From IMG/VR virus record IMGVR_UViG_3300033571_003975, positions 1 through 20,381 of that record: DNA of 20,381 bases; one strand, written 5' to 3'. The DNA is from a virus. Shown piece by piece: positions 1,616 through 10,526 of the stretch; the stretch's first letter is position 1; every line of letters starts with the position of its first letter. The notes under the pieces were generated by a model. That model was not told the origin of the DNA. It saw nothing but the letters and a program-made list of their open reading frames with translations, and made no database searches. The position numbers and the translations under genes were made by a program.

Positions 1616-3114
1616 CGACCACAGCCCCCCACGACGCTGCGACGTTCCCGAGTCAGGGCGATCACTTCGCGGACTTTTGCCGCACCTACCTGCGCCACAC
1701 TAAAGGCCGATGGGCTGAGCAGCCTGTCGAACTTGAGCAATACCAACTTGACCTGATGCGCGAAGTGCTGCGCCTTGACCCGGACACCGGGCGGCGCGTG
1801 TACCGCACCTGTCTTGTCGGCTTGCCGAGAAAATCAGGCAAGTCAACGCTTGCCGCAGCACTCGGCCTGTACATGCTCACCGCTGACGCGGAGGCCGGTG
1901 CCGAGGTCATCATTGCCGCAGGCTCACGCGAACAGGCCAGCATTGTGTTTGACCAAGCGCGTGGTTTCGTGGACGGGTCGCCGTTGCTCGGGGACTTTTG
2001 CGACTCCCAACGGTTCGTCATCCTTGGGCCTGATGGCGGAGTAATGAAACGCATTGCGGCTGACGGTCGGTTGCAGCATGGCTTGAATCCGTCAGCGATC
2101 ATTGCGGACGAGTTGCACGCATGGACGACGCCCCGGCAGGAGGAGTTGTACGCGGCCCTGACCACAGGCAGCCATGCCCGTGAGGAGCCGCTTACGTTCA
2201 TTATTACGACGGCTGGTTACGACAAGGCCACTGTGCTTGGTCGTCTGTATGACGAAGCCATACGCATGGACAATGTTGAGCGGAGTGACGGCCTGACGAT
2301 TGCCCGCAGCCCCGCTGCCGGTTTCCTGATGTGGTGGTACGGGTTGCGCGAGGATGAGCCTGCCGATGACGTTGACTTGTGGGCTGCCGCCAACCCGGCG
2401 TCGTGGATTACCACCGATGTGCTTGCTCAGCAGGCCGCGTCACCGACGCTGGACGAACTCGCGTTTAGACGCCTTCACTTGAACCAATGGACGAAGGCCC
2501 GTGACTCATGGTTTCCTGCGGGTCAGTGGGAATCGCTCAAGACTGACGGCGGAATCCCTGACGGTGCTGATGTGTTCATCGGCGTTGACGTTGGGCTTGT
2601 TCACGACACCACGGCTGTGGCCGTTGCGTACAGGCCCGATGACGGACCTGTCGTACTCCGCGCCCGGGTATGGGCTGCGCGTGATGATGCGGTCGCTCAT
2701 CAGGTGCTACCCGGTGGGCGCGTTGACCTGTCCATCGTGGAGGAACACATACGCGCTATTGCGAGCCGGTTCAACGTCGTTGAGTTGGTGTATGACCCGC
2801 GATTTTTTGACCGGTCGGCGGACATGCTTGCCAACGAGGGCATGACGGTCGCGCCTGTTGAACAGGGGTCGCGCCGGATGCTTGAGGCATACGCCCGATT
2901 TTATGCAGCCGTGACCGAGGGTAGAGTCACGCACGATGGTGACAAGGTGCTAGCGCAACACGTCGAATCGGTACAGGGTGTGATGACTGAACGAGGTTGG
3001 AAAATCAGCCGCCCCCGCAGCCAGCGCATTGACGCCGCAGTTGCGTGCGTTATGGCGCACTATCGTGCCGAGCGGAGCGACCCGGCTGAGTACGTCCTAA
3101 CGTGGGACGACTGA
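1612..3114 (+). CDS. terL: Terminase large subunit (packaging ATPase and nuclease)
   Basis: This 500-residue packaging motor subunit starts at TTG 1612 (TTGA overlap). It hydrolyses ATP to pump DNA through the portal and cuts concatemers into genome units. The ATPase domain has a Walker A, GLPRKSGKST (70-79), a Walker B with the catalytic glutamate, AIIADE (162-167, Asp166 and Glu167), and the coupling segment TFIITTAG (195-202). The RNase H-like nuclease domain has the expected acidic residues: Asp326 in GVDVG, Asp395 in YDPRFF and Asp474 in RIDAAVA. Length and motif order match HK97-type large terminases. No intein or frame break is visible. The partner small subunit is separated from it by three small genes. 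Confidence 0.97.
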   Translation: MTTTAPHDAATFPSQGDHFADFCRTYLRHTKGRWAEQPVELEQYQLDLMREVLRLDPDTGRRVYRTCLVGLPRKSGKSTLAAALGLYMLTADAEAGAEVIIAAGSREQASIVFDQARGFVDGSPLLGDFCDSQRFVILGPDGGVMKRIAADGRLQHGLNPSAIIADELHAWTTPRQEELYAALTTGSHAREEPLTFIITTAGYDKATVLGRLYDEAIRMDNVERSDGLTIARSPAAGFLMWWYGLREDEPADDVDLWAAANPASWITTDVLAQQAASPTLDELAFRRLHLNQWTKARDSWFPAGQWESLKTDGGIPDGADVFIGVDVGLVHDTTAVAVAYRPDDGPVVLRARVWAARDDAVAHQVLPGGRVDLSIVEEHIRAIASRFNVVELVYDPRFFDRSADMLANEGMTVAPVEQGSRRMLEAYARFYAAVTEGRVTHDGDKVLAQHVESVQGVMTERGWKISRPRSQRIDAAVACVMAHYRAERSDPAEYVLTWDD

Positions 3115-3116
3115 CC

Positions 3117-3884
3117 GTGCGTGCGCTTGTCATCGGCTGCGGAAGGCAGGGTCAGCGCCACCGCCGCGTGCTGACAAGCATGGGGTTCGCGGTGGATACC
3201 ATTGACCCCATTGAGCCTGACGCGACGTACTCGGACATGAGCGCGGCGGCGGGCAACGACTACGACGCCGTTGCGGTGGCCGTCCCCATCCGACTGCTAG
3301 CCCGTGTTGCCATTGACGCCATGTTCGATTTTGAGCCGCCCGTCATTATGGTTGAGAAGCCACTTGGTGCCAGCGTCACCGAGGTCGTGCAGTTGGACAA
3401 GGCTGCGGAGTCCACCGGCACACTTGTCGTCCCCGGGTACACCGAGCGGTACAACCCTGCGGTCATGCAGTTCGCCGCGATGCTTGAGGACGGCGACAGG
3501 GCTGACGTGGTGAACATCGCTGCACGCCGCTACTCGCCTGACGGCGGTGCGCCCGACGTTGACCCCATCATTGACCTCGGCGTACATGACATTGACATTG
3601 CCATCAGGAACGCACCGGGCGCGGTCGTCCACATTGACGCCGGGTACGCACCACATCGCTCGCGGGTTTTTGTCGCCGTGCATGAGGATGGTGTTTGCAC
3701 GGTGCTTGACCTTGCCAACCGCATGGTGGACAACGTTGCGGTTGACGGTGCTGAGCCGCTAGTTGCCCTGTGGGAAAACGCGCTTGCGCAGCCGCAGGAA
3801 TACCGCAGCCTTTCGCATGAGATTGACGTGATGCGCTGCGCGGAGTTCCTTATTGGTGCCGCTGACGCAGAAGTCGTCACCTAG
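3117..3884 (+). CDS. Gfo/Idh/MocA-family sugar oxidoreductase (auxiliary metabolic gene)
   Basis: This 255-residue protein is chosen to start at GTG 3117, two bases after the terminase stop. GTG 3102 would add five residues but overlap the terminase. The N-terminus is a Rossmann NAD(P)-binding strand and loop, VIGCGRQGQRH (5-15). Next come EKP (80-82), with the lysine typical of the family active site, then GYTERYNPAV (107-116), and D-x-G-x-H-x-x-D at 153-160 (DLGVHDID), the other catalytic signature. The family oxidises or epimerises sugars, sugar nucleotides or inositols. It is shorter than typical members (about 330-390 residues), mostly in the C-terminal domain, yet key residues remain. 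Proximity to two glycosyltransferases suggests it prepares a sugar donor. The substrate is not predictable from sequence. Confidence 0.9.
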   Translation: MRALVIGCGRQGQRHRRVLTSMGFAVDTIDPIEPDATYSDMSAAAGNDYDAVAVAVPIRLLARVAIDAMFDFEPPVIMVEKPLGASVTEVVQLDKAAESTGTLVVPGYTERYNPAVMQFAAMLEDGDRADVVNIAARRYSPDGGAPDVDPIIDLGVHDIDIAIRNAPGAVVHIDAGYAPHRSRVFVAVHEDGVCTVLDLANRMVDNVAVDGAEPLVALWENALAQPQEYRSLSHEIDVMRCAEFLIGAADAEVVT

Positions 3885-5001: not shown

Positions 5002-5670
5002 GTGCGCCCGTTACTCCTCGTCCTCAACCCGCGTGACATACGCGAGTGCGTTGAATCAATCTCCCGGCTGCCCGTGGACAAGGCGTGGCTTCGCTCGTAC
5101 ACCGAGGAGGAACTAAGCCGGGTCATTCCCGAGGTTGTCAGCGATGCCGGTTCATCGTATGACTATTTCCTCATTGTTCCCGATGACTGCGTTGTCAGCC
5201 CCGGGGCACTCGCGGCGGTGATGGCGCAGGCCGAGGCATACCCTGTCGTCAGCGGGTTTACACGGCTTGACGCAACACATCCGATGGTGAACCTGACCAC
5301 GCGCCCGCTCATCGGTGACGAGCCGGTGCCCGGGGCATATGACTTCTATTCGTATGCCGACGTGATGGCCCACGACGGTCAGGTCATTGACACCGGCTTC
5401 GTCGGCTTTGCGCTGACCGGAATGAGCCGCGACCTGTGGCAGCGGTTCCCGTTCCGCGCCCGAGGCTGTGGGTCAACGGCGTGTTGCTCGGACTTTGACC
5501 TATCCGTCAGGTTGCGTGACGCCGGTATCCCGATGGTGGCGGCAACAGGCGGGTATGTCGAACACGTCAAAATTACATGGGGAGAACGCGACTGCGGCAA
5601 AGACCCGCGCAAGAGGTTGCTCATTGGTGAGCGACCGCAGGAGGTCATTTATGAGGAGGCACGGAGTTGA
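5002..5670 (+). CDS. GT-A type glycosyltransferase (family 2-like)
   Basis: This 222-residue enzyme starts at GTG 5002. It has a glycosyltransferase GT-A layout: an N-terminal strand LLLVLNP, then YDYFLIVPDDCVVSP (53-67) with Asp61-Asp62 in the position of the metal- and nucleotide-sugar-binding DxD motif. TGFVGFALTGMSRDLWQRFPF (131-151) is the typical acceptor-side segment, and CCSDFDLSVRLRDAG (161-175) carries the likely catalytic acid. YVEHVK (185-190) supplies a histidine often seen near the C-terminus. It would transfer a sugar from a nucleotide donor to an unknown acceptor. It lies directly upstream of, and overlaps, a second glycosyltransferase. An unusual cluster of Cys157, Cys161 and Cys162 sits next to the active site. 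The acceptor is unknown. Confidence 0.8.
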   Translation: MRPLLLVLNPRDIRECVESISRLPVDKAWLRSYTEEELSRVIPEVVSDAGSSYDYFLIVPDDCVVSPGALAAVMAQAEAYPVVSGFTRLDATHPMVNLTTRPLIGDEPVPGAYDFYSYADVMAHDGQVIDTGFVGFALTGMSRDLWQRFPFRARGCGSTACCSDFDLSVRLRDAGIPMVAATGGYVEHVKITWGERDCGKDPRKRLLIGERPQEVIYEEARS

Positions 5671-6434
5671 GAATCATAGGGTTGCTCAGTTGGTATGACG
5701 AAGCGCCATCGTGGTTGGCGGCGACGGTAGCGGCAGCCGCGCCGATGCTTGACCACTTGGTTGCGGTGGACGGCGCATACGCCCTTTACCCGGACGGGCG
5801 TGCGCGGTCCGAGCCGATGCAAGCCGAGGTTGTCCTACGCACTTGTGACGCTGCGGGCATCGGCCTGACGTTGCACCGACCTCAGGAGCGGTGGCACGGC
5901 AACGAGACACACAAGCGAACCTATGCGTTTGCACTCGCTAACGCCGAGGCTGAGGCGGGCCGTGATTGGGTCTTTGTCATTGACGGTGACGACGTGGTTA
6001 CGCGCATCCCGCCCGACCTTCGCCCGAGGCTCAAGGCGACTGAGCGCGATGCCGCCGAGGTCACGCTTTGGGAACGCGAGGCGTGGATTGAAAAGACGCC
6101 CGAGGCGTCACAGGGATTGAACCTTCCGCCAATCACTCGGCAGCATCAACGTCGCCTGTACCGGGCTGCCGACGAAATCACGGTTACGGGTTCTCACTTC
6201 GTTTACCTTGCCAAGCGGCGCGATGAATACTCGTACTTGTGGGGGCCTAACACATTCCCGCTTGTTGCGGCTGCTGACTTCACTGACATTGAGATTGAGC
6301 ACCGCAGCAGGCACAGGGACCGTGCTAGGCGGGAAAGCGCCGCTGAGTATTACCGTGTGCGTGATGCCCTCGGAATTGAGCAAACAGGGCAGCGCATGAT
6401 TGAAACGGTGGACGGTGAAAAGGTGGTCGTTTAG
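5667..6434 (+). CDS. Glycosyltransferase family 2-like protein
   Basis: This 255-residue protein starts at TTG 5667, overlapping the previous stop (TTGA). AGGAGG at 5654-5659 is seven bases upstream, which fixes the start. The N-terminus MRIIGLLSWYDEAPSWLAAT and LVAVDGAYALYP are typical of GT2 proteins that handle low-complexity acceptors, followed by an 'NETHKRTYAFALANAE' helix. WVFVIDGDDVV (101-111) holds the DxDD donor-binding motif. The C-terminus IEIEHRSRHRDRARRESAAE and YYRVRD matches a basic His/Arg segment seen in many phage glycosyltransferases located among late genes. It probably decorates a virion or cell-surface component. Virion glycosylation by phage enzymes is known in some mycobacteriophages. 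Its stop overlaps the portal start (TAGTG). Confidence 0.85.
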   Translation: MRIIGLLSWYDEAPSWLAATVAAAAPMLDHLVAVDGAYALYPDGRARSEPMQAEVVLRTCDAAGIGLTLHRPQERWHGNETHKRTYAFALANAEAEAGRDWVFVIDGDDVVTRIPPDLRPRLKATERDAAEVTLWEREAWIEKTPEASQGLNLPPITRQHQRRLYRAADEITVTGSHFVYLAKRRDEYSYLWGPNTFPLVAAADFTDIEIEHRSRHRDRARRESAAEYYRVRDALGIEQTGQRMIETVDGEKVVV

Positions 6435-7666
6435 TGCCGGAATTCCGGTGGCCGTGGCAAACAGCCGAGGAGCCTAAGCCCGCACCGCCCGAGCAGCGGG
6501 CAGAGTGGGGCAGCAGCGCCATACCCCTTCCGGGTATGGGATACTTCTCGCTGACCGGTCGGACGGTCAACCCGGACACCGCGACCGGGCTGCCCGCCGT
6601 GACCGCCGCCATCCGTTTGGTGGCTGAGTCAATCGCGTCCATGCCCATAATCGTTTACAAGGGCACAGGGCCAACCCGAGGACGCGCATACGACTCGGAC
6701 CAATACCGGCTGTTGCACGATGCGCCTAACGCCTATCAGTCGCCGTTTGATTTCCTTAGCGACATTGCCACTTCTCTTGAGGGCTTCGGCAATGCCTATG
6801 TCCAAAAGATCAAGCGCAACGGGCGCGTGGTTGAGTTGGTGCCGCTTGACCCGGAGGCGGTGTACATTCACCGCGACAAGGAAAGCCGTGAGCGCCGTTA
6901 TGACGTGATGGTTGACGGTCAGCGCGTGACCGACTTGACGCCTTCCGACATTCTCCATATCCGGGGCATGACCATGCGCGGTGGCCTACTCGGAATGTCA
7001 CCGATACAGGTTCACCGCAACGCGCTCGGCAACGCCATCGCGCTCAATGACTTCGTGAGCCGGTACTTCGCCAACGACGCAAGCCCCGGGCTTGCGATCA
7101 AGATTCCGGGGACCGTCACTAGCCAGCAGGCGAAGTCAATCCTTGAGGTGTGGCAGTCCACTCATGGCGGCGTTATGAACTCGCACCGGCCTGCCGTCTT
7201 GGCATCGGGCGCTGAATTGGACAAGGTGCCCGTCACGCTTGAGGACGCGCTTGTCATTGAGGCGCAGCAGTTCAGCGTTCGTGAGGTCGCGCGTATTTTC
7301 AACGTTCCGCCGTCGCTACTCGGTGCCGATGGTTCCGCCACCGCCGCAAGTGCCGCCGAGGAGGCCGACCGCTTTGTCAGGTTCAGCCTCGGCCCGCGCA
7401 TCCGTCGTATAGAAATGGCGTTCAGGGCTGACCCCGACTTGTTCGGCGGCACCGACCTGTTTCCTGAGTTCCTTGCTGACTCGTTGCTCAGGCCCGATAC
7501 CGCCACGCGCTATCAGGCGTACTTGCTCGGGAAGCAGGCAGGTTGGCTGAGCACGAACGAGATTCGTGAACTTGAGAACAGGCCCCCGGTTGACGGTGGC
7601 GATCAGGTTCAGATTACGCCTGTTGGGGGTGCTCCCAACGTGAACGGTCAGGGGGGTCTTGAGTAA
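6434..7666 (+). CDS. Portal protein, HK97 type
   Basis: This 410-residue protein starts at GTG 6434, sharing a base with the upstream stop. It would form the dodecameric ring at one capsid vertex through which DNA enters and exits. Family features seen in order: TATGLPAVTAAIRLVAESIASMP near residue 50, LLHDAPNAYQSPFDFLSDIATSLEGFGNAYVQK (about 93-126), LVPLDPEAV, then ILHIRGMTMRGGLLGMSPI (about 172-190). The crown-side RYFANDASPGLAI and EAQQFSVREVARIFNVPPSLLG (about 277-298) are strong HK97-portal signatures. The C-terminus ends WLSTNEIRELENRPPVDGGDQ and a Gly/Asn-rich tail, as usual. It is followed without a gap (TAATG) by the maturation protease. Confidence 0.96.
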   Translation: MPEFRWPWQTAEEPKPAPPEQRAEWGSSAIPLPGMGYFSLTGRTVNPDTATGLPAVTAAIRLVAESIASMPIIVYKGTGPTRGRAYDSDQYRLLHDAPNAYQSPFDFLSDIATSLEGFGNAYVQKIKRNGRVVELVPLDPEAVYIHRDKESRERRYDVMVDGQRVTDLTPSDILHIRGMTMRGGLLGMSPIQVHRNALGNAIALNDFVSRYFANDASPGLAIKIPGTVTSQQAKSILEVWQSTHGGVMNSHRPAVLASGAELDKVPVTLEDALVIEAQQFSVREVARIFNVPPSLLGADGSATAASAAEEADRFVRFSLGPRIRRIEMAFRADPDLFGGTDLFPEFLADSLLRPDTATRYQAYLLGKQAGWLSTNEIRELENRPPVDGGDQVQITPVGGAPNVNGQGGLE

Positions 7667-9246
7667 TGCCTTGGCACATTGAGAATGACAACCCTGAATG
7701 TTCCGGGTTCGCTGTTGTCAAAGACGACACCGGCGAAGTCGTCGGATGCCACGAGATAGCGGGCGAGGCCGACGATCAACTTACCGCGCTCAACATCGCT
7801 GAGGCTGAGCAGGACCGTGCCATTGGTGACGTTGACCTTACGCCTACGGCGGAAATGCGTGACCTTGCTGCCCGTGGCGTTGAGTACCACGAGCAGGGCC
7901 TAAGCGGCGACGGCATCGCACCGGCCACGGTTGCCGATGCGCGAGCCATTGCGTCAGGTGATGCGATTAGCCCTGACAAAGTTGTACGCATGAACGCTTG
8001 GTTTGCACGCCACCTGCCCGACCTTGATGCACCGCAAAACTCGGACCCCGGCAACGATGATTTCCCCGGACCGGGTGCGGTCGCGTGGTATTTGTGGGCA
8101 GGCGACCCGACTGACTCCAAGGCTGCCGGTGTCGCGTGGTCGGCTCGCAAGGTCAGTGAACTTGAGGCCAACGGATACCGCATCGAACAGCGTGAGGACG
8201 AGCCGAGCGATTTGCTGGCCCCGCGTCAGCGTGCGATGTACGAGAAGTACGAAGGCATTGCTGAGATTTTCGGACAGTGGAGTCAGGACGCGGGACCGGA
8301 CGGCGCACACTACATGGGGCCGGATGACAACCCGTTCAAGGCTGATGGACTCAACTGCGCGGCGTGCGTTTTCTTTCAGGGCGGCGGCGCGTGCGAAATC
8401 GTCAGCGGCGAGATTCACCCTGACGGCCTGTGCAAGTTGTGGGTCATCCCCGAGGGCGGGGCTGCGCCCTATAGTAATGACGACATGCTTGATGACTCAA
8501 TTGAAAATAAGCCGCCTGTCATCACCAATGGTGCTGACCCCGAACGGTCGCACTTCCGTGGTGGTGTTGAGTGGCGCGAGTCCGGGGCCGGTAAGCAGTA
8601 CCGCGTGATTCGCGGTTATGCCGCCGTGTGGAATTCGCGCAGCGAGGACTTGGGCGGATTCGTTGAGGTACTTGAGCCGGGTGCCTTCCGTGAGGCGCTT
8701 GGTCCCGAGGCTGACGTTGCCCTCCTATACAACCACGATGATTCCACCATCATGGCCCGTCAGTCGGCGGGCACGCTTGAGTTGGAGGAGGATGAGCGCG
8801 GCCTTCGCGTGTGGGCGCGGGTTGACATGAACGACCCTGACGTTGCGCGAGTCGTCGGCAAGATGAACGCTGGCAACGTGAGTCAGATGAGTTTTCGGTT
8901 CACCATGAACCCGGGCGGGGATGAGTGGGATACCTCCAACGGCACGCCGCTGCGAACGATTCGCTCAGGCGGAATCAAGCGTTTGTACGAGGTCACCCTT
9001 ACCCCGTTCCCCGCATACCCGGCGTCGAAGGCGTCGGTGTACGAGCGGGCCATTGAATCCGGTCGCCTTCACAACGAAGGGGCCGTTGCCAACGTCGCAC
9101 AGGCTGAGCCTGTGGGCGATGACACCCCCGAGCCGCGTGCCAATGGCGCGGGCGAGGATAAGCGTGCCGAGGACTCGGCGCGTTACCGGGCGTCCCTGTG
9201 GGCTGCTCGTTTGTCCAAGCACCGTAATAGGAGTGTGAAAAAGTGA
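7666..9246 (+). CDS. Prohead maturation protease (S78 type) with large N-terminal extension
   Basis: At 526 residues this is more than twice the usual length of about 200 for HK97-type proteases. Residues 296-460 are the protease: RGYAAVWNSRSEDLGGFVEV, then catalytic His357 in YNHDDS, and Ser409 in NVSQMSFRF, followed by LYEVTLTPFPAYPASKASV. It would cleave the capsid protein's N-terminal domain during head maturation. In front lie three blocks: a short N-terminal unit (1-50), a domain at about 62-171 (AARGVEYHEQG, ISPDKVVRMNAWFARH, GPGAVAWYLWAGD, ARKVSELE) known fused to other phage head proteins, and a four-cysteine block at 190-262. The acidic linker 265-295 and basic tail look flexible. 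There is no frameshift, and the start ATG 7666 overlaps the portal stop. The extension might act as a scaffold inside the prohead. Confidence 0.9.
   Translation: MPWHIENDNPECSGFAVVKDDTGEVVGCHEIAGEADDQLTALNIAEAEQDRAIGDVDLTPTAEMRDLAARGVEYHEQGLSGDGIAPATVADARAIASGDAISPDKVVRMNAWFARHLPDLDAPQNSDPGNDDFPGPGAVAWYLWAGDPTDSKAAGVAWSARKVSELEANGYRIEQREDEPSDLLAPRQRAMYEKYEGIAEIFGQWSQDAGPDGAHYMGPDDNPFKADGLNCAACVFFQGGGACEIVSGEIHPDGLCKLWVIPEGGAAPYSNDDMLDDSIENKPPVITNGADPERSHFRGGVEWRESGAGKQYRVIRGYAAVWNSRSEDLGGFVEVLEPGAFREALGPEADVALLYNHDDSTIMARQSAGTLELEEDERGLRVWARVDMNDPDVARVVGKMNAGNVSQMSFRFTMNPGGDEWDTSNGTPLRTIRSGGIKRLYEVTLTPFPAYPASKASVYERAIESGRLHNEGAVANVAQAEPVGDDTPEPRANGAGEDKRAEDSARYRASLWAARLSKHRNRSVKK
8233..8451 (+). 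other. HiPIP-like four-cysteine domain within the protease gene
   Basis: Residues 190-262 of the protease contain Cys231-x2-Cys234-x8-Cys243-x12-Cys256, in the setting NCAACVFFQGGGACEIVSG and then DGLCKLWVIP. The spacing, the Phe-Phe after the second Cys, the Gly-rich turn, and Gly-x-Cys-x-x-Trp at the end resemble high-potential iron-sulfur proteins (CxxC ... C ... GWCxxW), which hold a [4Fe-4S] cluster. Zinc binding is the main alternative. Confidence 0.55.
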
Positions 9247-10526
9247 GCGACGTTTTTGAGGCTCGCAAGGCGCACGCCGTGGCCATTGACGAGATGGCCG
9301 AGGCAGTCGCCGCGCTCAGCACCCCGACCGAGGACGCCGACATTGACGCGCTTGAGGCGCGTTGTGCCGCTGCTGAGGTTGAGGTTGAGCGCCGCAGCAA
9401 GATTGTTGAGCGACTTGAGCGCATTGAGGAGGCCCGCGCCGCTGCGCCGGTCCTGACCGACTCGCCCGAGCCGCGCATTGCCGTCACCAAGGATGAGCCG
9501 GTTTACCGGCCTGACGCCAAGGTGTCGTTTTTCCGTGACCTCGTTATGGCTCGCAACGACCGTGACGCCGCCGACCGCCTGCACCGTCATCAGCAGCAGG
9601 CCGCTGAGTCGCGTGACGTGTCGTCGTCTGGCAACGGCTATGTGCCGCCGGTGTACCTGTCGCAGTACGAGGCTCCGCTTGCACGCCCGGGACGTCCGTT
9701 CGCGGACGCGCTCGCAAAGGCTGCCCTCCCCGCAGTTGGGACTTCGTTTACCCTGCCCAAGTTGACCGGTGGCGCAAGTGTCGCCGCGCAGACTGACGGC
9801 GGCGGTGTGTCCGAGACTGACCCGACCACCACGACTGTCACTACCTACGTCCGCACCATCGCGGGTCAGGTGGACATGTCGCAGCAGGCCATGGACAGGA
9901 CTGACCCGTCATTCGACGCGGTTGTGTTCCGCGACCTGCTGAACGCCTATGACGCCGAGTTGGACCGTCAGACGCTTGTTGGTTCGTCGGGCAGCAACGA
10001 GCACGTCGGAATTGCGAACGTGTCGTCTATCAACACCGTGACGTACACGTCGTCCACGCCGACTGCGGCTGAGGCGCTGCCGAAGTTGTACGACGCCATT
10101 CAGAAGGTTGCTTCGACGCGGTACATGTACCCGACGGCAATCATCATGCACCCCCGCCGCGCCGCCTTTTTCGCTGCGGGCCTCTCAACCTCGTCCCCGC
10201 TGTTTCAGCAGGGCGGACTGATGCAGGCTGTGGGTGAGCAGAACGGCGGCGTTGTCGGAACCATCGCGGGCCTTCCCGTCATCATTGACGCGAACCTTCC
10301 CGTAACCGGTGGGGCCGGAACGAATCAGGACGACATTTACGTTGTCCACCTGCCTGACCTCGTTCTCATGGAGGGTGCGCTTCAGACTCGTGTGCTTGAG
10401 CAGCCGCTTAGCGACACCCTTGAGGTGCGCGTGCAGTTGTTCGGGTACTCAGCATTTGCGTCGGGCCGGTACGAGAAGGGCATTTGTAAGATCAGCGGCA
10501 CCGGTCTTGTCACCCCGTCGTTTTAG
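9243..10526 (+). CDS. Major capsid protein, HK97 fold
   Basis: This 427-residue shell protein starts at GTG 9243, overlapping the protease stop. The first 70 or so residues are a charged helix (EARCAAAEVEVERRSKIVERLERI), the delta/scaffolding domain that the upstream protease should remove. The mature part follows: GGYVPP-like GNGYVPPVYLSQYEAPLARPGRPFADAL, an E-loop region FTLPKLTGGASVAAQTDGGGVSETDPT, and the spine and A-domain with VDMSQQAMDRTDPSFDAVVFRDLLNAYDAELDRQTLVG. Later come MHPRRAAFFAAG, GTIAGLPVIIDANLP and VLMEGALQTRVLEQPLSDTLEVRVQLFGYSAF, typical of PF05065-like capsids. It is likely the most highly expressed gene here, and a strong terminator follows. No decoration-protein gene is evident next to it. 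Confidence 0.96.
   Translation: MSDVFEARKAHAVAIDEMAEAVAALSTPTEDADIDALEARCAAAEVEVERRSKIVERLERIEEARAAAPVLTDSPEPRIAVTKDEPVYRPDAKVSFFRDLVMARNDRDAADRLHRHQQQAAESRDVSSSGNGYVPPVYLSQYEAPLARPGRPFADALAKAALPAVGTSFTLPKLTGGASVAAQTDGGGVSETDPTTTTVTTYVRTIAGQVDMSQQAMDRTDPSFDAVVFRDLLNAYDAELDRQTLVGSSGSNEHVGIANVSSINTVTYTSSTPTAAEALPKLYDAIQKVASTRYMYPTAIIMHPRRAAFFAAGLSTSSPLFQQGGLMQAVGEQNGGVVGTIAGLPVIIDANLPVTGGAGTNQDDIYVVHLPDLVLMEGALQTRVLEQPLSDTLEVRVQLFGYSAFASGRYEKGICKISGTGLVTPSF

Follow-up and report, generated by a model that had tools for sequence, protein, structure and literature searches.

Phage head-maturation proteins probably include a cluster-binding module with the fold of high-potential iron-sulfur proteins (HiPIPs), as judged from sequence comparisons and a predicted structure. 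We recognized it in the prohead protease of an uncultured bacterial virus, IMG/VR virus record IMGVR_UViG_3300033571_003975, from which a stretch of 20,381 bases (the window) was analyzed. The phage module is a diverged variant of the HiPIP type, found in a new setting, and some of its phage relatives already bear a HiPIP name in databases. The protease gene and its neighbors show the following features:

6434–7666, plus strand: portal protein gene, upstream of the protease (PF04860, E=8.5e-86)
7666–9246, plus strand: head (prohead) maturation protease ORF, 526 aa, with the four-cysteine module (PF04586, TIGR01543, PHROG 80)
7666–7815, plus strand: N-terminal small domain, residues 1–50, with Cys12 and Cys28; Cys28 is nearly invariant in relatives of the same architecture
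7825–8160, plus strand: helical domain, residues 54–165, a frequent companion of the module (match to PHROG 2859)
8200–8469, plus strand: HiPIP-like module as modelled, residues 179–268 (29-member alignment; AlphaFold2 pLDDT 85, pTM 0.76)
8293–8316, plus strand: GPDGAHYM, residues 210–217, invariant in the 29-member alignment
8356–8442, plus strand: four-cysteine core C231-x2-C234-x8-C243-x12-C256-x2-W259, which in sequence matches HiPIPs
8575–9060, plus strand: S78 protease domain, residues 304–465 (PF04586; T4 gp21 protease fold, Z 11.1)
9243–10526, plus strand: major capsid protein gene, downstream of the protease (PF05065, E=2e-13)

The sequence-only reading had called the product of this ORF a capsid maturation protein, and the assignment holds: Pfam PF04586 matches residues 304–465 with E=3.6e-36, TIGR01543 matches with E=1.1e-30 and PHROG 80 with E=2.4e-45, and portal and capsid genes flank the ORF. 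An S78 domain over the cut-off, the conserved His and Ser, and these flanking genes identify an HK97-type prohead protease. His357 and Ser409 of the S78 domain are invariant in the alignment of relatives and are likely to be the catalytic pair. Outside the module, the ORF is an ordinary HK97-type S78 prohead protease (PF04586), whose protease part folds like T4 gp21 and the herpesvirus proteases (Z 11.1 to 5jbl); most HK97-type S78 prohead proteases that we found, unlike that of the window, lack the module. The N-terminal segment of the window protein, MPWHIENDNPECSGFAVVKDDTGEVVGCH (7666–7815), contains Cys12 and the nearly invariant Cys28. The prohead protease of Pontimonas phage phiPsal1, like other proteases without the HiPIP-like module, begins with a similar two-cysteine segment. 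Three further genes of the window are a GFO/IDH/MocA-type oxidoreductase gene between terminase and portal (3102–3884; PF01408, E=1.1e-6), a single-strand binding protein gene in the unusual interval between small and large terminase (963–1391; PF00436, E=1.2e-20), and a possible glycosyltransferase directly 5' of the portal gene (5667–6434; weak match to PF00535, E=0.08).

The four cysteines named in the sequence-only reading are all present in the protease ORF and lie within 8233–8451. They sit in LNCAACVFFQGGGACEIVSGEIHPDGLCKLWVIPE, with codons starting at 8356 (Cys231), 8365 (Cys234), 8392 (Cys243), and 8431 (Cys256), and the codon of Trp259 at 8440. The window protein shows the cysteine arrangement of HiPIPs (CxxC...C...C, then two residues and an aromatic one), Trp being the aromatic residue. 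Phe236 stands at the position of Phe48 (C-x-F) and Trp259 at that of Trp80 (C-x-x-W) of the C. vinosum HiPIP, and Gly254 matches the HiPIP Gly two residues before the fourth Cys. The Tyr of GPDGAHYM, Tyr216 in the window, is kept in 35 of 35 phage modules of the combined alignment. It lies 9–14 residues ahead of the first Cys in the modules, as a Tyr does in the R. tenuis, PioC, and R. marinus HiPIPs; the automatic sequence alignment pairs it with the Tyr of 3h31 (R. marinus HiPIP) only. The conserved HiPIP Tyr (Tyr19 of C. vinosum) packs on the cluster, and Tyr216 is a candidate for its counterpart. The module shares with HiPIPs (PF01355; 3h31, 1isu, PioC 6xyv) the pattern CxxC-x(n)-C-x12-C-x2-aromatic, the predicted fold and the Gly before the fourth Cys, perhaps also the Tyr upstream of the first, and with PioC the identical CxxC-x8-C-x12-C spacing. 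Unlike HiPIPs, it occurs internally or terminally in head proteins and scores below the Pfam cut-off. It also carries the invariant GPDGAHYM lead-in, unlike the five solved HiPIPs compared, and, ahead of the fourth Cys, an aliphatic residue at a site that is Trp or Tyr in many HiPIPs.

Sequence profiles in both directions, profile–profile comparison, and the predicted fold all support the proposed likeness to HiPIPs. Searched singly, the window sequence matched the NCBIfam iron oxidase model (a HiPIP) and the HiPIP 3h31 in the PDB, each with E=0.003, and the Pfam HIPIP model with E=0.1 (13.4 bits); single-sequence matches to Disintegrin and Nudix were gone once a profile was used. Used as the query against viral contigs, the module region yielded 63 loci, and 29 phage modules were aligned. 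When the profile of this alignment was run against all PDB sequences, the top four matches were all HiPIPs (3h31, 2e-4; 1hpi, 0.03; 1isu, 0.05; PioC, 0.1); as a yardstick, the R. tenuis HiPIP and PioC, both accepted HiPIPs, score 0.047 against each other. In the profile–profile comparison that the sequence-only reading had proposed, hhalign aligned the phage modules with the five solved HiPIPs over 43 columns at a probability of 95.8 (E 7.7e-9 for one comparison).

For the reverse search, a profile built from the five solved HiPIPs and zero phage sequences was run against the 11,528 six-frame ORFs of 144 loci. Its top 106 matches were module ORFs, and it matched 150 of the 151 module ORFs, with a best E of 1.2e-8 and E=5.9e-4 for the window ORF. 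No sequence among the shuffled and reversed controls (23,056 ORFs) scored better than 0.57 with this profile. One antisense, non-module ORF of 63 aa (locus L129) reached E=0.0019 and was taken as noise. The Pfam HIPIP model gave matches in 25 of 34 module-bearing phage records, and 27 of its 28 places coincide with the module when compared by hand, via coordinates, with the module locus ranges. None of these 34 records reached the curated PF01355 cut-off of 22 bits, the best relative scoring 20.0, and we therefore do not file the phage module as a member of PF01355.

The structure prediction points the same way. The AlphaFold2 domain model, made from 29 rows without templates, has a mean pLDDT of 85 and a pTM of 0.76, the five models ranging from 85 to 56. 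The first two PDB matches found with Foldseek, 3h31 and 1noe, are both HiPIPs, though weak ones (3h31: E 1.1, probability 0.38). Realignment of Foldseek's 25 best chains left a list of HiPIPs only, and the predicted module aligns with 1isu at a modest Z of 4.9 (1.7 Å over 49 residues). In the full-length model (15 rows), the module region has low confidence (pLDDT 36–53), so the fold work uses the domain model, and the fold claim rests on this one model together with the independent sequence evidence. Compared with predicted viral structures, the module model matched 15 phage proteins at E<0.001 (TM 0.76–0.86). One of these bears the name "High potential iron-sulfur proteins family profile domain-containing protein"; the others include XkdF, SppA/ClpP-class protease, prohead protease, ParB/sulfiredoxin, and zeta-toxin proteins.

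The profile located 154 modules in the 144 loci, one of them cut by a contig end, and the four cysteines are kept in all 153 complete modules. The spacing is 8,12 in 141 of these, the rest having 7, 9, or 15 and 12 or 18, and the last position of the motif is Trp in 142 of the 153 and Ala in 11. A second subtype has a GIWxGY lead-in and CxxA in place of CxxW but keeps the four cysteines, the spacing, and the Tyr. Since the 144 loci had been found partly via motif peptides, a module-blind scan with the protease domain alone was added. Among the 80 S78 ORFs that it returned, the module was present in nine, all with four cysteines (9/9), and was not detected in the other 71. The nine are the closest relatives, up to 91% identical in the protease domain. 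The check for cysteine loss raised by the sequence-only reading came out in its favor, as loss of a single Cys was seen in no relative (153/153 modules; 9/9 in the module-blind scan). Loss or gain affects the module as a whole, and stepwise cysteine loss was not seen.

The module is mobile: it occurs with S78, XkdF-type, and S49 proteases, with other domains, alone, and in tandem. In 135 complete ORFs it was internal in 46, near the N-terminus in 40, near the C-terminus in 29, and alone in 20, and relative to the S78 protease it is placed before or after, varying among ORFs. A non-redundant set of 49 module ORFs contained 20 of the S78 family, seven of the XkdF-type S78_2 family, one S49 protease, and three phage capsid proteins; further matches were to a Tudor-like domain (six) and zeta toxin (two). 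Many of the 49 match head-protein PHROGs, and 27 match phrog_2859, the helical domain. In some cases the fusion partner is a domain other than a protease (zeta-toxin family, ParB-like), so that the link between module and head proteins is strong but not exclusive. Stand-alone module genes lie near the capsid gene in locus L093 (5944–6252) and between the capsid and major tail genes in L058, and at two loci one ORF contains two full modules. A second module scan confirmed at least 582 stretches. A scan of cellular genomes with the strict peptide pattern returned one contig, in a Nanopelagicales MAG, which is probably a binned phage.

Several arrangements are worth recording in their own right. 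Stand-alone genes of the Ala type and the Trp type stand side by side in L111 (5588–5902 and 5905–6258), and likewise in L084, L122, L124, and L138. In the tandem ORF of L139 (5716–6261), the first copy is very short, KSCRSCLHYEGRYCDLWNAKTKPAMVCDAW (x2, x7, x12), and may represent the module in minimal form. ORFs of L017 (3947–5287) and L021 (3944–4948) join the module to a ParB/sulfiredoxin-like segment (DGHHRWAA).

Part of the module-bearing group, at least, is likely to have actinobacterial hosts: the window terminase comes closest (about 33%) to those of phiBT1/phiC31-like Streptomyces phages, DSL-LC01 is predicted to be an actinobacteriophage, and the host of phiPsal1 is an actinobacterium. 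A search of 198 Actinomycetota genomes turned up no HiPIP, and acquisition of the module from such hosts is thus not supported. SufA/IscA-type assembly genes were likewise not found in 34 module-bearing phage records, so that a cluster would depend on the host.

We propose that residues ~185–265 of the protease form a diverged HiPIP-fold module, most likely holding one [4Fe-4S] cluster on Cys231, Cys234, Cys243, and Cys256 in a pocket to whose lining Phe236, Trp259, and probably Tyr216 would contribute. The host would build this cluster with its own assembly system. As a mobile accessory of head-assembly proteins, joined before or after several kinds of protease, the module could act in docking or scaffolding, as a cluster-stabilized domain that keeps the protease and its relatives within the assembling prohead, electron transfer being incidental. 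The variety of partners, the placement at either end, and the occurrence as a separate gene suggest that it contacts something common to proheads rather than one protease, which favors docking or scaffolding over a redox switch or an ejected cargo. We therefore regard this as the most likely role, if only tentatively; the GPDGAHYM patch is a candidate contact surface.

Two other roles would accept the HiPIP fold. The oxidation state or loss of its [4Fe-4S] cluster could control the activity or release of the fused protease and so time head maturation. HiPIP clusters are established as redox active, and direct fusions join the module to three kinds of maturation protease (S78, XkdF-type, S49). 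But 71 of the 80 S78 proteases found lack it, and their heads presumably mature as usual; the module is also seen on its own or together with non-proteases, and its position before or after the protease varies. We consider such a switch improbable. Equally doubtful is a cargo role, in which the module would enter the virion together with the protease or head protein and reach the host with the DNA, to serve there as electron carrier or iron source. By the time DNA is packaged, HK97-type proteases have normally left or been degraded, there is no sign of a translocation domain, and 198 genomes of the likely host phylum encode no HiPIP; stand-alone and tandem copies near head genes, and the Fe-S clusters known in phage tail structural proteins (PMC10276861), speak for this cargo. 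A broader proposal, that tailed phages of aquatic bacteria took over the HiPIP fold as a redox-active prohead [4Fe-4S] module, with head assembly or maturation dependent on the cluster state or reporting it, seems to us quite unlikely; if true, it would mean an iron-sulfur-dependent step in capsid maturation.

The remaining readings concern the metal site itself. That a scaffold inherited from HiPIPs has come to bind zinc or to be held together by disulfides, in a purely structural role, is unlikely. In its favor, four-cysteine sites bind zinc easily, sequence does not tell zinc or disulfides from an Fe-S cluster, and one subtype has Ala for Trp. Against it, the spacing lacks the second CxxC of zinc ribbons and equals that of PioC, and every top match in sequence or fold is a [4Fe-4S] protein. 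A zinc ribbon proper, the geometry that the sequence-only reading had named as the contrary outcome, was rejected: two CxxC-type knuckles are needed and one is present, the third and fourth cysteines are 12 residues apart, and the PDB entries listed by the aligner are HiPIPs. The one Pfam match to Zn_ribbon_bTOP1 (E=0.25) covers residues 4–17, outside the module. That an unrelated four-cysteine motif resembles HiPIPs by chance, without common ancestry, is highly improbable: small Cys-rich domains do yield weak, composition-driven matches and the Pfam cut-off is not reached, but the shuffled and reversed controls fail (best 0.57 vs. 1.2e-8) and sequence, profile, and fold tests agree. Ahead of all these, the cluster-binding HiPIP-fold module remains the reading that we prefer.

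Elsewhere, HiPIPs carry electrons in respiration and photosynthesis, and the well-studied ones are exported; the phage module, unlike these, would be cytoplasmic. It extends HiPIPs to viruses whose likely hosts have none. That it is joined to several kinds of capsid-maturation protease and never loses a cysteine, across at least several hundred phage stretches from the environment, points to a step of head assembly that depends on metal. At about 80 residues, and existing also as a single gene, it is a simple test protein. Iron-sulfur clusters are established in phage structural proteins of the tail hub (lambda gpL type; roseophage R4C hub), where a cluster on four cysteines is needed for assembly (PMC10276861), and in the literature found, phage structural Fe-S clusters are reported for tail hubs only. 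The module resembles these proteins in having four cluster-type cysteines in a phage structural protein, whereas they act at the tail tip, at another assembly stage, and have no HiPIP module. Our literature search found no paper on HiPIP modules in phage head proteins or proteases, and the DSL-LC01 paper does not mention the HiPIP module.

In databases, the label "high potential iron-sulfur" is already attached, as a name only, to phage proteins such as A0A6J5M9J5 (BFVD) and WJZ48512.1 and UOF82869.1 (GenBank). A0A6J5M9J5 has the same module (53% identity, TM 0.86). Phage DSL-LC01 has both a gene so labelled and, two genes on, a module-bearing maturation protease. WJZ48512.1 and the Manatee Spring proteins are of another type with more cysteines; this group is seen in L066 (1128–1862), L224 (4893–5282), and L225 (4962–5306), from DSL-LC01 and Manatee Spring phages. 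The prohead protease of the cultured phage phiPsal1 (L065, 2644–4098) has a looser motif, CxxC-x15-C-x12-C-x2-W, which gives E=0.65 only with the HiPIP profile and stands before, not after, the helical domain.
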